A DNA stretch of 64,000 nt from Bacteroidota bacterium (GTDB taxonomy: Bacteria > Bacteroidota > Bacteroidia > NS11-12g > UBA955). The stretch covers positions 1 to 64,000 of the forward strand of contig CAUJCT010000027.1 of assembly GCA_963169345.1 (NCBI GenBank). The letters are read 5' to 3'. Position numbers and translations under genes: made by a program. Of this stretch, positions 1-32,223 are shown one piece after another; within the stretch, counting starts at the first letter, position 1, and each line of letters opens with the position of its first letter. The notes beneath the pieces were generated by a model. That model had not been told where the DNA came from. It did no database searches and was given only the letters and a program-made list of their open reading frames with translations.

Positions 1-96
1 GAGTCATTAGATGCAAATTAAGATCTGACGGGGTATTTAACCCCTTCATATCTTAGCAAACAAGCTAACAATTCCAGATGTAATATCTGCAATTAG

Positions 97-141
97 GTTA
101 ATAGTTAGCGAAAAGCGGTCAACCTTATTTAGGCATGGACA
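97..141. repeat. 45-bp direct repeat, copy A
   Basis: These 45 bases recur without a mismatch at 31266-31310 in the same orientation. The core runs from GTTAATAGTTAGCG to AGGCATGGACA. Both copies are intergenic and both lie beside short tandem arrays with 7-bp units. No open reading frame is conserved across it. I do not recognise the element. Confidence 0.9.
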
Positions 142-226: not shown

Positions 227-258
227 ATTCAGCTATTCAGCTTTTCAGCTATTCAGCC
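227..258. repeat. Octanucleotide tandem array (4 x ATTCAGCT-like)
   Basis: Four consecutive 8-mers of the form WTTCAGCY are seen. The last overlaps the stop codon of the leftward glycosyltransferase gene at 253-255. The same ATTCAGC word recurs several times at 31.35-31.78 kb, so this is part of a repeat family rather than chance composition. Confidence 0.75.
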
Positions 259-996
259 CTTCAAATACTTATACTTCACCAAACCCCATTTCTGGAAGCG
301 GTACTGGAAAGAGACTTTTAGAACACCAAGGCCGTAGATACTGCTTCTTTTGAAGTTGATACTGCTAGCTTCATCAAAATATTTTGTCGGGCAAGTGACC
401 TCCCCTATTTCGAAACCGGCCATAAAAATCTGCGCAATCATCTGGTTGTCGAAAATAAAATCATCTGAATTTGCTTCAATATCAATTTTTTCAAAAATAG
501 ATTTATCAAAAGCACGGTAGCCTGTGTGGTATTCGGATAACTTTTGCCCCAACATGATATTCTGAAATAAAGTCAGCATACGATTGGCTATATATTTATA
601 CATAGGCATGCCGCCTTTTAATGCACCTTTACCAAGAATACGAGAGCCAAAACTGACAGGATAAACTTCATTGGCAATCATATAGGCCATACTTTCAATA
701 AGTTTTGGCGTATATTGATAATCCGGATGCAGCATGACGATGATATCTGCTCCAATTGAAAGTGCCTTAGAGTAACATGATTTTTGATTACCGCCATAAC
801 CTCTGTTGACTTCATGTTTAACCACATGCTTTATACCAAGCTCCTGAGCTTTTCTAATCGTTTCATCGCGACTATTGTCATCAACCAGTACGACATCATC
901 CACTATTTCAAATGGAATTTCGCGATAGGTTTTTTCCAGGGTAGCTTCGGCATTGTAGGCCGGAAGTACAACGACTATTTTTTTCCCTTTTATCAT
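253..996 (-). CDS. Family 2 glycosyltransferase (dolichyl-phosphate-mannose-synthase-like)
   Basis: A 247-residue soluble GT-A enzyme that probably moves a sugar from a nucleotide donor to a lipid or glycan acceptor at the inner face of the cytoplasmic membrane. The N-terminus has the GT2 opening VVVLPAYNAEATLEKT, the nucleotide-site acidic motif LVDDNSRDET near residue 40, the HEVNRGYGGNQ segment near 65 and the metal-site-like HPDYQY near 92. There is no C-terminal membrane domain, so it resembles short DPM1-like members. The ATG start is clear. It stands alone, divergent from the membrane-protein gene at 1080. Donor and acceptor cannot be told from the sequence. Confidence 0.85.
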   Translation of the reverse strand: MIKGKKIVVVLPAYNAEATLEKTYREIPFEIVDDVVLVDDNSRDETIRKAQELGIKHVVKHEVNRGYGGNQKSCYSKALSIGADIIVMLHPDYQYTPKLIESMAYMIANEVYPVSFGSRILGKGALKGGMPMYKYIANRMLTLFQNIMLGQKLSEYHTGYRAFDKSIFEKIDIEANSDDFIFDNQMIAQIFMAGFEIGEVTCPTKYFDEASSINFKRSSIYGLGVLKVSFQYRFQKWGLVKYKYLKG

Positions 997-28327: not shown

Positions 28328-31135
28328 CTAATGCGCTTCCAGCCAATTTTTGCCACTGCCGGCTTCGGCTATCACTGGTACTTTGAGGGGCATGGCGTTT
28401 TGCATTTCTTCCTGTATCAGCGTTTTTAATTCTTCTAACTCCGACTTATGGACGTCAAACAACAATTCGTCGTGAACCTGTAAGATCATTTTGGATTTGT
28501 AATGTCCCCCTTTTAGTCGATTCTGCACATTGATCATAGCCAGCTTAATCATGTCTGCGGCGGTACCCTGAATTGGCGCATTAATAGCGTTTCGCTCAGC
28601 AAAACTTCTTACTGTGGCATTGGCCGAATTGATGTCTCTTAAATACCTTCTTCGTCCCATCAGTGTCTCCACATAGCCCCTCGAACGCGCTTCTTCTATA
28701 ACCCGGTTCATATAGGATTTTATGCCCGGAAACTGAGAGAAGTAATTGTCTATGATTTCCTTGGCTTCTGTCCTGCTGATACCCAGATTTTCGGCCAATC
28801 CGAAAGCACCCTGTCCGTATATCAATCCAAAGTTTACGCTTTTAGCTTTATACCTTTGTTCTTTTGTAACCTCTTCTATGGCGACTCCAAATACTTTTGC
28901 TGCAGTAGCCGTGTGGATGTCTATGTTCTTTGAAAATGCCTCCATCATGCCTTCGTCTCCGCTGATACTGGCTATCACTCTCAATTCAATCTGCGAATAG
29001 TCGGCACTGACTATCACATGGTCTTCATCTCTCGGTATAAAAGCTTTACGCACTTCACGTCCCTTCTCTGTGCGAATTGGTATGTTTTGCAAATTCGGGT
29101 TGGTAGAACTCAATCTTCCTGTTGCTGCAACAGCTTGATTAAATGTAGTGTGAACGCGACCAGTCTTTGGATTGATCAGCTCTGGCAAGGCATCCACATA
29201 GGTCGATTTAAGTTTCTGCAAGCCTCTGAAATCTAAAATATCCTGCACAATTGAACTCTTATGGGCCAGCTTAAGTAAAATATCTTCACCTGTCTGATAC
29301 TGTCCTGTCTTAGTCTTCTTAGCTTTCTCATCCAGCTTCAACTTATCAAACAGAATTTTGCCAAGTTGTAATGGAGAGGCTATATTGAATTTCTCTCCAG
29401 CTTGCTCATAAATTCTGGCTTCAATTTCAACAACTTCCTTCCCTATTTCCTCTGAATATTGTCTTAAGAAATCGGCATCCACTCTTACACCTTCGCGTTC
29501 CATATCCGCTAAGACCGGCACCAATGGCAATTCTATTTTCTCCAAAACATTGGTAGCGTTAAGAGTGGCAATTTTAGGCGCTAATATATCTTTCAACTGC
29601 AAAGTTATATCAGCGTCTTCTGCTGCGTATTCCTTCACTTTTTCAATATCCACTTCCGACATTTTCAGTTGGTTTTTACCCTTTTTGCCTATTAAAGTTT
29701 CAATTGAAACAGGGTCATATTTTAAATATTGCCTCGACAACTCATCCATATTATGCCTCTTGTCAGGCTCAATTAAATAATGCGCCAACATCGTATCAAA
29801 ATAAGGCTCACTGACTTCCATCCCGTAATTTTTCAGAATCTGCAAATCATATTTCAAATTTTGCGCAACCTTCAAAGCCTTTGATTCAAAAGCAGGAGCA
29901 AACATTTTTAGGTCATTTGGACTAGATATTTTAACGTAATAAGCTTCTCCCTTTTTGAAAGAAACTGCCAAGCCCAGAGCATCGGCATTCAAAGCATCTA
30001 AACCTGTTGTTTCAGTATCAAAACAAAAGGCATCAGCATCCAGCATTTTTCTCAGCAAAGTCTGCCTTCCTTCATCAGAATCTATTAACTGATAATTATG
30101 CTCTACATTCTCAATAGTATCATAAACAGCCGAAGGATCCGGAATTTCATCTTCAACAAAGACACTGGGTTCGCTATTTTCAGAAGCAGTTTGTGCAGGC
30201 TGACTGAATAAATCGGCCTGAGCACTTTGCTTAGGTGCAGGAGCCGGAGAGGGCGTAGGTTCTTCACCTAAAACTCTCTTGGTCAGTTGCCTGAATTCAA
30301 GCTCATTGAACAGTTCTCTTACTTTATCCTTATCAATATCCTTTACCTGATAATCATCCAGAAAATGATCGATAGGCACTTGTGTATTAATAGTGGCCAA
30401 GTGTTTGGATAAAAGGCCTTGTTCTCTGAAATTAATCAGATTTTCCTGTTGTTTACCTTTGAATTTATCGGTATTGGCCAAAATATTTTCGAGGGAGCCA
30501 TATTCTTTAATCAGTTTCTTAGCGGTTTTTTCGCCCATGCCTGGAATTCCGGGGATGTTGTCAACGGCATCACCCCATATCGCCAGAATGTCGATGACCT
30601 GATGGATGTGCTCAATTTCCCACTTCTTAAGTACTTCCGGAACACCCATGATTTCGTAGTCGTTACCCAATCGAGCCGGTTTAAAAATAAACACATGCTC
30701 ATTCACCAACTGACCAAAATCCTTATCCGGTGTCATCATAAAAACTTTGCAATCCGGGGAGCCATCTCTGAGTGCAATTGTTCCTATGATATCGTCAGCT
30801 TCATAGCCATCTTTGGTTATCACAGGGATATTGAAAGCTTCAAGTATTCTGAAAATATATGGAATACTTTTACTCAGATCTTCAGGCATTTCTTCACGAT
30901 GAGCCTTGTAAGCTTCGTATACTTCATGTCTTTCAGTTGGTGCCGAGGTATCAAACACCACAGCCAAATGCGTAGGTTTTTGATTTTTAATAACATCGAG
31001 AATGGTATTGACAAAGCCATACATAGCAGAAGTATTCAAACCATAGGAGGTTATGCGCGGGTTCTGGCTAAAGGCAAAAAAGGCTCTGTAAATAAGGGCC
31101 ATGCCATCTAAAAGGAATAAACGTTTCTCACTCAT
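28328..31135 (-). CDS. polA: DNA polymerase I
   Basis: A 935-residue repair and Okazaki-processing polymerase. Residues 1-290 are the 5'-3' flap exonuclease (LFLLDGMALIYRAFFAF, GYEADDIIGT, WGDAVDNIPGIPGMGEKTA). Residues about 350-530 are the 3'-5' proofreading domain with an intact FDTETTGL exo I motif, so this copy probably proofreads. The polymerase domain shows motif A SADYSQIELRVIAS, motif B RYKAKSVNFGLIYGQG and motif C LQVHDELLFDV. An acidic/Pro-rich linker (APAPKQSAQ) separates the first two domains. A TAACTTCG box lies 7 nt before the ATG. Confidence 0.97.
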   Translation of the reverse strand: MSEKRLFLLDGMALIYRAFFAFSQNPRITSYGLNTSAMYGFVNTILDVIKNQKPTHLAVVFDTSAPTERHEVYEAYKAHREEMPEDLSKSIPYIFRILEAFNIPVITKDGYEADDIIGTIALRDGSPDCKVFMMTPDKDFGQLVNEHVFIFKPARLGNDYEIMGVPEVLKKWEIEHIHQVIDILAIWGDAVDNIPGIPGMGEKTAKKLIKEYGSLENILANTDKFKGKQQENLINFREQGLLSKHLATINTQVPIDHFLDDYQVKDIDKDKVRELFNELEFRQLTKRVLGEEPTPSPAPAPKQSAQADLFSQPAQTASENSEPSVFVEDEIPDPSAVYDTIENVEHNYQLIDSDEGRQTLLRKMLDADAFCFDTETTGLDALNADALGLAVSFKKGEAYYVKISSPNDLKMFAPAFESKALKVAQNLKYDLQILKNYGMEVSEPYFDTMLAHYLIEPDKRHNMDELSRQYLKYDPVSIETLIGKKGKNQLKMSEVDIEKVKEYAAEDADITLQLKDILAPKIATLNATNVLEKIELPLVPVLADMEREGVRVDADFLRQYSEEIGKEVVEIEARIYEQAGEKFNIASPLQLGKILFDKLKLDEKAKKTKTGQYQTGEDILLKLAHKSSIVQDILDFRGLQKLKSTYVDALPELINPKTGRVHTTFNQAVAATGRLSSTNPNLQNIPIRTEKGREVRKAFIPRDEDHVIVSADYSQIELRVIASISGDEGMMEAFSKNIDIHTATAAKVFGVAIEEVTKEQRYKAKSVNFGLIYGQGAFGLAENLGISRTEAKEIIDNYFSQFPGIKSYMNRVIEEARSRGYVETLMGRRRYLRDINSANATVRSFAERNAINAPIQGTAADMIKLAMINVQNRLKGGHYKSKMILQVHDELLFDVHKSELEELKTLIQEEMQNAMPLKVPVIAEAGSGKNWLEAH

Positions 31136-31233
31136 TACAGTGCGAAGTTAATGAAATAAATTTAGGGCTGAAAGGCTGAATTGCTGAATCACTGAAATGT
31201 GTTGCGTTAGAAAGATTAAAGGATGAAGGGAAT

Positions 31234-31275
31234 AGGATCTAGGGGTTAGGATTTAGGGGTTAATAGTTAATAGTT
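31234..31275. repeat. Heptanucleotide array (6 x 7 bp)
   Basis: Six heptamers in perfect register: AGGATCT, AGGGGTT, AGGATTT, AGGGGTT, AATAGTT, AATAGTT. The last two run into copy B of the 45-bp repeat. Confidence 0.85.
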
Positions 31276-31310
31276 AGCGAAAAGCGGTCAACCTTATTTA
31301 GGCATGGACA
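31266..31310. repeat. 45-bp direct repeat, copy B
   Basis: Identical over 45 bases to 97-141. The base before and the base after differ between the copies, so the repeat ends are sharp. It is bracketed on both sides by heptanucleotide arrays. Confidence 0.9.
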
Positions 31311-31345
31311 AATAACCAATAACTAATAACCAATAACTAATAACC
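31311..31345. repeat. Heptanucleotide array (5 x AATAACY)
   Basis: AATAACC and AATAACT alternate five times with no interruption, starting at the base after copy B of the 45-bp repeat. Confidence 0.85.
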
Positions 31346-31596
31346 ATTTCGCCACAATTCAGCGATTCAGCATTCCCCAACGACTTAACGACTTATGTTC
31401 CTTTAAGCGTCGCGATAAATCGACGACGCCTACGGAAGCGACAAAAATGATTGTGGGCATTGTTTGCAGTAAGTATATTGTCTACCAACAAGACATGCGA
31501 CTTAACGACTTAACGGCGAAGCCTCGACTTAACGCCTTTCTTTGACACGTGTGGGTTTACATGCGCAGACAAAAGGTATGTAAAGAAATATATGAT

Positions 31597-31680
31597 CTAT
31601 GAAACCGCCACCTCATCCGGGACTTGAATCTCGTCATTTACTATTTCTATGAAACCGCCGTCCCGCTGGGACTTTGATTC
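31597..31680. repeat. Imperfect direct repeat with 50-bp period
   Basis: CTATGAAACCGCC occurs at 31597-31609 and again at 31647-31659. Each copy is followed after about 8 bp by GGGACTT and a GATTC/GAATC end. The second copy contains the small palindrome GTCCC-GCT-GGGAC. Only two units are present, so it is not a CRISPR array. Confidence 0.7.
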
Positions 31681-31812
31681 CAGATTAACTATAAAACTTA
31701 TATACAAGCAAAACGCTTTCATCTCTACCGCGAAACAATTCAGCAGCGAAGCCTCAGCATTTCAGCTATTCAGCATTCCCCAACGACTTAACAACTTAAC
31801 GACTTAACTTCC

Positions 31813-31820
31813 TATCTTTG
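31813..31820 (+). promoter_or_regulatory. -7 promoter box of the thioesterase-smpB operon
   Basis: TATCTTTG is a perfect TAnnTTTG match, 4 nt before the ATG at 31825. Confidence 0.6.
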
Positions 31821-31824
31821 CCTT

Positions 31825-32223
31825 ATGAAGTCCATATTTAAAACCGGTGATGTGAAAATATTCGAAAAAATAGTTGGGCCAAATGATATAGCTGAATTTG
31901 AAAGTGGTAAGGTTCACGATGTTTATGGCACTTTTGCGCTGGGACGGGATGCCGAATGGAGCAGTCGGTTGTTTGTGCTGGAAATGAAGGAAGATGATGA
32001 AGAAGGGATAGGTACATTCTTAAATATTAAGCACCATTCACCGGCCTTATTAGGTGAAACAGTTCGGTTTACAGCGGTAATTTCCAAACTCGAAAAAAAC
32101 ATTGTCGATTGTCATGTTAAGGCAGAAGTTGGCTCCCGACTTATTGCAACATGTGAGACAGGTCAGAAAATAATTAAAAAAGAAAAGCTAAATTTGCTGT
32201 TTGAGAGTTTAAAAAGCCAATGA
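31825..32223 (+). CDS. Hotdog-fold thioesterase-like protein
   Basis: A 132-residue protein with the outline of the FlK-like acyl-CoA thioesterases: GTFALGRDAEWSSRLFVLEM, then GIGTFLNIKHHSPALLGETVRFTAVI, the strand-turn block that contacts the thioester in this fold, then a further strand and CETGQKIIKK. The substrate is not evident. The ATG at the end overlaps smpB by 4 bp (ATGA), so the two genes are coupled. A longer acidic loop (KEDDEEG near residue 57) is unusual. Confidence 0.75.
   Translation: MKSIFKTGDVKIFEKIVGPNDIAEFESGKVHDVYGTFALGRDAEWSSRLFVLEMKEDDEEGIGTFLNIKHHSPALLGETVRFTAVISKLEKNIVDCHVKAEVGSRLIATCETGQKIIKKEKLNLLFESLKSQ

Follow-up and report, generated by a model that had tools for sequence, protein, structure and literature searches.

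What occupies the space between polA and a thioesterase-like gene in this Bacteroidota genome? In the window, that is, the whole stretch of 64,000 nucleotides analysed, polA, the thioesterase-like gene and smpB neighbour a repeat-flanked sequence that we call copy B of the core; copy A lies at the start of the window. Positions 31234-31345 around copy B comprise 112 bp, or 16 x 7 bp without a slip: six heptamers (AGGATCT AGGGGTT AGGATTT AGGGGTT AATAGTT AATAGTT, 31234-31275), a 35-bp core (31276-31310, AGCGAAAAG...GGACA) and, from 31311, five further heptamers (AATAACC AATAACT AATAACC AATAACT AATAACC), for which TRF reports a period of 7 and, better, a period of 14 with 100% matches. A preliminary description had placed the core of copy B between two arrays in heptad register, a layout that is exact. 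It counted six heptamers before the core, and they can be read so, but the last ten bases (31266-31275) already belong to the end of an insertion sequence (IS): since a full IS ends in exactly the 45 bp of 31266-31310, these ten bases are part of that end and not of the array. The features, in window coordinates, are as follows.

1..141, + strand: copy A, the last 141 bp of a full-length IS copy, the rest being cut off by the contig edge (100% identical to the copy on contig C3)
136..206, + strand: heptad array of the CCTAATT type that begins where the IS of copy A ends (TRF, lag count)
227..263, + strand: octad array ATTCAGCT beside copy A (TRF)
28328-31135, - strand: polA (gene name from Pfam)
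31136..31824, no strand: intergenic region from polA to the thioesterase-like gene, repeat-filled in this genome only, as compared with eight syntenic same-genus genomes
31168..31196, - strand: octad-like stretch on the left, CTGAATTG CTGAATCA CTGAA, in opposite orientation to the right-hand octads (by reading)
31234..31275, - strand: left heptad array of six heptamers, G-rich on the + strand, its last 10 bp common to the IS end
31266..31310, + strand: copy B, a solo 45-bp right end of an IS3-type element (identical to the 45 bp that end the full IS, G000:C3)
31287..31310, + strand: right terminal inverted repeat, 24 bp, whose reverse complement TGTCCATGCCTAAATAAGGTTGAC pairs with the left terminal inverted repeat TGTCAATGCCTGAAATAGGTTGAC
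31311..31346, + strand: heptad array on the right, AATAACC/AATAACT, roughly the left arm in reverse complement (TRF, lag count)
31355..31395, + strand: octads ATTCAGCG/ATTCAGCA and AACGACTT (TRF)
31758..31808, + strand: second octad block, ATTCAGC and AACGACTT (TRF)
31825-32223, + strand: thioesterase-like gene (gene name from Pfam)

On folding of 114 bp, the arms of copy B pair with -23.6 kcal/mol. Further repeats, GCGTCGCGATAAATCGACGACGCCTACGGAAGCGACAAA and two CTATGAAACCGCC...GGGACTT units, occupy the same intergenic space at 31380-31700, and a sequence related to them, ACGACGCCTACGGAAGCGACAAA, is also present on contig C7.

Among 17 same-genus genomes, polA was found in 15, the window genome included, and in eight of the 14 non-self loci the thioesterase gene and smpB stand beside it. 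Here 689 bp separate polA from the thioesterase gene; in all eight of these syntenic loci the gap is far less than half as long, and heptads, octads and the core, sought by eye in the eight gaps, were absent from them. As the sister gaps are short and contain neither arrays nor core, the whole filling at 31136-31824 is specific to this lineage.

The core and the insertion sequence

The core occurs in eight places of the genome, seven times exactly and once with two mismatches. A 145-bp query taken from the start of the window is matched over 140-145 bp in four places, over 87 bp in one, and over exactly 45 bp in copy B. On contig C3 lies a full IS (L051:2567-4009), 1443 bp long, with two reading frames and with terminal repeats, TGTCAATGCCTGAAATAGGTTGAC and TGTCCATGCCTAAATAAGGTTGAC, that begin with TG and end with CA, as is characteristic of the IS3 family. 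Likewise in keeping with this family, orfA lies upstream of orfB in another frame and encodes an HTH_Tnp_1 domain (PF01527, 43.1 bits, cut-off 24.1), and orfB encodes an rve (DDE) integrase core (PF00665, 60 bits, cut-off 32.6); the NCBIfam IS3 model NF033516 gives 155.2 bits for the orfB piece alone, its cut-off of 160 being set for the whole protein. IS3 family members duplicate 3-5 bp of their target. Read from the contig ends, the IS at C3/C11, which splits a single coding frame, shows the 3-bp duplication TGC, and the one at C7/C27, to which copy A belongs, shows CTC; both fit the IS3 range, and a related IS in genome G056 shows at most 2 bp. The left end matching copy A is found on contig C7, with the matching CTC duplication. 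Thus, judged from the sequence, an IS element with terminal repeats, reading frames and target duplications at C3/C11 and C7/C27 makes copy A the right end of a full IS at the contig edge, and copy B a solo right end. The preliminary description had not recognised the core as an IS end; we dropped the idea of an independent conserved motif or structured RNA, as the 45 bp are the end of a 1443-bp IS.

Copy B matches the IS without a difference over 45 bp and the contig C49 copy over 46 bp; beyond that point, each passes into heptads. The edge of this identity lies in GTTAATAGTTA, which is common to the left array, and its presence in both the left array and the IS end makes a deletion of the IS body between short direct repeats plausible.

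How widely is the transposase distributed? At E <= 1e-20, orfB is found in eight of 59 relatives' genomes, the window genome included. Twelve of the 13 other relatives with core-like sequence have no related transposase at the same threshold, a count to be read in the light of short-read drafts losing such copies. Plasmids were searched for a close, named relative of the transposase, with no match above 60% identity. Two arrangements of IS ends may be recorded here. On contig C50 (L057:2902-2964) a full IS is inserted about 14 bp from a solo right-end relic, the terminus of which is repeated as the heptads TGGACAA TGGACAA, and at the end of G057:C14 (L031) a right end, a short spacer and a left end abut, as in an IS-circle junction or in tandem copies.

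Growth and pairing of the heptad arrays

Three lag-7 segments are present in the window, all beside the two core copies, as against none in each of 50 dinucleotide-preserving shuffles. They are also the only ones in 464 kb of the 3.63-Mb genome (the window plus 20 sampled 20-kb stretches), where lag-8 segments number 13; in this sample TRF lists 24 rows with period 8 and two with period 7, the latter two in the window. Core-less heptad arrays exist elsewhere in the genome, on contigs C2, C19, C21, C22, C31, C48 and others; the CCTA heptad pattern is weakly specific, with 40 matches against 18 for its reversed control. The preliminary description would have been contradicted by a lack of lag-7 signal elsewhere together with a stable, non-repetitive locus in sisters: the sister species indeed lack the array at this locus, but lag-7 arrays do occur elsewhere in the genome. 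The tandem repeats commonly met in this genome are the period-8 arrays (ATTCAGCT, GTTAAGTC), whose two unit types often occur near each other; these arrays are seen in the window at 227-263, 31355-31395 and 31758-31808, and at L061, L066, L067, L071 and L075.

How the arrays change can be read from two near-identical paralogous segments on contig C2. They measure 260 and 267 bp and differ by one 7-bp gap inside the array; the extra unit copies its neighbour, and all eight substitutions lie outside the array. Unit identity, measured over 69 arrays, declines steadily with distance, being 0.822 at lag 7, 0.784 at lag 14, 0.749 at lag 21, 0.712 at lag 28 and 0.692 at lag 35, against 0.22-0.33 at non-heptad lags. 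Both the one-unit difference between the paralogues and the identity that falls with distance are those of slippage-type repeats, and support a change of arrays by duplication of neighbouring units, sequence included, combined with point mutation. The copying process suggested in the preliminary description, one that keeps length and not sequence, fares accordingly: its slippage agrees with the C2 paralogues and the identity decay, but the sequence of the neighbour is copied too. In the form of a reverse-transcription-like or otherwise template-driven mechanism, such copying would explain why units vary along an array of constant period and why arrays drift to about 0.70 identity at 35 bp. This we hold to be very improbable, as identity decays with distance just as local duplication and mutation would have it and the C2 paralogues differ by one copied unit; a reverse-transcription-like step is not needed, and nothing points to reverse transcription. 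With regard to diversity-generating retroelements and other RT-driven repeats, the genes beside copy B are polA, the thioesterase-like gene and smpB.

The arrays often face each other. Copy B and C49 each have a G-rich left and a C-rich right array, and a single strand folds into a stem, in which most heptads of C49 give six pairs. Of 28 neighbouring array pairs within 700 bp, 11 run G-then-C, three of them with a core between, one C-then-G, and 16 on the same strand. At L341 (G000:C22:6354-6671), a PF05635 four-helix-bundle gene (23S rRNA intervening-sequence protein) lies between inverted G-type and C-type heptads; we rejected such genes as a general cargo of inverted arrays, since only one of the two genome copies is so flanked (L342 is not). 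A second dispersed hairpin element, TTTTTTTAATTTC(C/T)(G/A)ACACCCTAGCAG(G/A)GTGA...GATTAAAATAATTCAA, has seven copies in the loci of this genome that were examined, with sites at L259 (contig C2; about 1447 and about 1637), L262 (about 1630), L064, L075 and L223; several copies are directly followed by heptad arrays.

Right ends and arrays across Bacteroidota

A right-end pattern scan with one genome per species yielded at least 112 stretches. Duplicate sequences and ends with less than 60 bp of flank were left out of the end set, and ends were typed as left or right by transposase evidence. Among the matches listed, the outward 70 bp of 51 right-type ends have their best lag at 7 or 14 in 43 cases, and the periodicity is strong in 33 (65%), as compared with 21 of 2092 random 70-mers of the same loci (1%). 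Array-bearing ends among these matches belong to Bacteroidales, Flavobacteriales, Saprospiraceae, Hymenobacteraceae, Algoriphagus and other Bacteroidota, one being binned as Chlorobiota. Adding the loci of relatives and of this genome to the matches listed gives 146 ends, with strong arrays at 48 of 77 right, 12 of 51 left and 7 of 18 ambiguous ends. Reading outward, 47 of the 48 right-end arrays in this enlarged set, the matches listed included, have more C than G, and their phase carries an information of 1.665 against a maximum of 0.648 in 2000 rotations. This phylum-wide juxtaposition of an IS clade with heptad arrays, fixed in strand and phase, is the new point: among the open-access papers listed, covered by titles and the starts of abstracts, none joins an IS insertion with heptad arrays.

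Could the association be a coincidence, intergenic space being the only place where IS relics and repeats are both tolerated? Relic and repeats are indeed both intergenic here, but the contrast between right ends and random 70-mers and the fixed strand and phase make this scarcely credible; it is refuted unless shared descent of the insertions biases that test. In the copies of this genome an AAC consistently occupies positions 4-6 beyond the IS end, a phase that differs by 3 from the phylum consensus. Since target choice gives the same register within a genome, the register alone does not prove that arrays grow from the IS end, and we did not use it alone to that end.

Across the enlarged set, matches listed included, 49 of the 146 ends have no detectable transposase frame or nearby contig edge, an upper count, since some retain longer IS remnants and a few terminate IS copies that the profile misses through divergence or breakage; 33 of the 49 are right, 7 left and 9 ambiguous. 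The excess of right over left solo ends might suggest that a solo core with its array is a discrete self-spreading unit, REP- or MITE-like, with one terminal repeat and an array, moved by the IS transposase. Genome G017 offers some encouragement for this idea: its five solo cores have unrelated left flanks, yet all begin with approximately AAACGG or AATAACGG and carry CACTTA-type arrays, and no related transposase was found in this genome. Still, we consider it quite improbable, as reading beyond the arrays revealed no second end, several solo ends retain longer IS remnants (175 bp at L177, 116 bp at L193), and the boundary of the unit is made uncertain by A-rich left edges.

Which came first, the array or the IS? 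The near-complete genome G056 has eight copies of a related IS (1303 bp) in the loci taken, seven of them equal in length and 0-5 substitutions apart. Their right flanks have a best lag of 7 or 14 in seven of eight cases, with scores of 17-23 of 28; on the left the best lag is 7 in three of eight, and a fourth is at lag 14 with a background score. Two copies with zero differences adjoin different, internally diverged arrays. The 158 distinct arrays in the loci examined comprise 73 at most 40 bp from a core (67 of these on its downstream side), 68 that are separated from every core by more than 300 bp or are in core-less loci, and 17 at intermediate distances; the loci were mostly chosen for their cores, such that genome-wide densities are not derivable from these counts. 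Residual cores were sought in core-less arrays of this genome, and none of those checked rose above shuffles. Near-identical IS copies with different arrays and the frequency of core-less arrays thus make it most likely that arrays mostly predate the IS, which inserts at pre-existing ones. A different IS of G056 (L333-L335; 1404 bp, three identical copies) has a best lag of 8 in two of three right flanks, which hold octads, not heptads.

The opposite order, in which the right end seeds the array and repair or replication at this end repeatedly duplicates the adjoining 7 bp, outward and in register, seems to us rather unlikely. It requires identical or near-identical IS copies to have produced different, internally diverged arrays, does not account for common core-less arrays, which in this genome keep no trace of a core, and has to accommodate one IS (L121) with the same array on both sides. 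In its favour are the position of arrays mostly on the right, starting at the IS end or no more than a few bases from it, their phase, fixed relative to that end, and first heptads that repeat the IS terminus, both in L057, as described above, and in L055 (TGGACAA TGAACAA). Distinctly unlikely, in our estimate, is a right end that serves as an array-building site, at which bound transposase or stalled replication drives outward tandem copying of 7 bp, or of 8 bp in a sister IS. If this were true, lone right ends would have been kept as array founders and spread across Bacteroidota.

Origin of copy B and known systems

The reading we favour, with a probability of about 0.68, is that copy B is the solo right end of an array-targeting IS3-type element that landed at inverted, slippage-grown heptad arrays and later lost its body. 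The arrays would be intergenic simple-sequence DNA in which whole units are gained or lost by slipped-strand copying and then drift by point mutation, which is presumably why the period holds while the units change. An IS3-type element would have landed at such an inverted array pair between polA and the thioesterase-like gene. Its clade would prefer arrays as targets, with the right end abutting the array and the C-rich strand outward; the distance between the IS end and the AAC(T/C) step of each heptad is fixed, as would be expected of a transposase that recognises this step in a periodic target. The IS body at copy B may have been lost later, plausibly by deletion between the GTTAATAGTTA of the left array and that of the IS end. 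Of all this, the identity to the IS end, the association across the phylum, its orientation and phase, and array change by whole units are shown by the data; target choice by the transposase and the route of this loss are what we infer.

Several observations speak against this reading. While insertion anywhere in an array predicts equal flanks, strong arrays are found at 48 of 77 right and 12 of 51 left ends, matches listed included; as simple targeting inside arrays does not predict this asymmetry, insertion would have to be aimed at the 5' edge of a C-rich array. Further points are the solo excess of 33 right over 7 left ends, two IS copies in G025 without arrays, the phase shifted by 3, and the relatives without a transposase. 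Our result ties the dispersed heptanucleotide arrays of Bacteroidota, until now listed as simple repeats without a known role, to an IS clade that, through strand and phase, marks where they end. If insertion at pre-existing arrays is confirmed, it would be an example, found across the phylum, of an IS that recognises a periodic target and not a fixed sequence. Such a safe-harbour strategy would be open to direct assay, and the natural insertions would form a set for asking when arrays arose.

How do these arrays and this IS compare with known systems? In the STRR heptamers of cyanobacteria a 7-bp period is favoured, and slippage has been proposed. The arrays described here resemble these and long simple sequence repeats in both respects, but their units drift strongly within an array and the arrays often come in inverted pairs. 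Long simple sequence repeats are cited in the introduction of a study (MacGregor, 2015; PMC4679880) which, in the part consulted, describes TAACTGA heptamer direct repeats from Beggiatoaceae, Cyanobacteria and a few Bacteroidetes, as well as two Cyanothece strains whose indels are mostly in 7-nt steps. Heptamer arrays in Bacteroidetes are, by this part of the study, already known. The likeness extends to intergenic heptad arrays, differences in 7-nt steps and occurrence in Bacteroidetes, and copy B is indeed intergenic with a period of 7. However, while TAACTGA stands within several nucleotides of a start codon in the BOGUAY genome, the units here read AATAACC/AATAACT and are separated from the starts of polA and the thioesterase gene by about 100 and 480 bp, respectively.

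For the IS itself, the precedent is set by the IS3 elements IS1397, ISKpn1 and ISPsy8, which insert into REP sequences, as stated in the part consulted of PMC1525189. To the extent described there, these elements share with ours an IS3-type transposase and a preference for a dispersed intergenic repeat. They differ in the target: in place of a palindromic REP unit, the flanks here are tandem heptads, and inverted array pairs are not REP units. The target is thus a heptanucleotide tandem array of species-specific sequence, met on a fixed strand and in a fixed phase, in Bacteroidota hosts.
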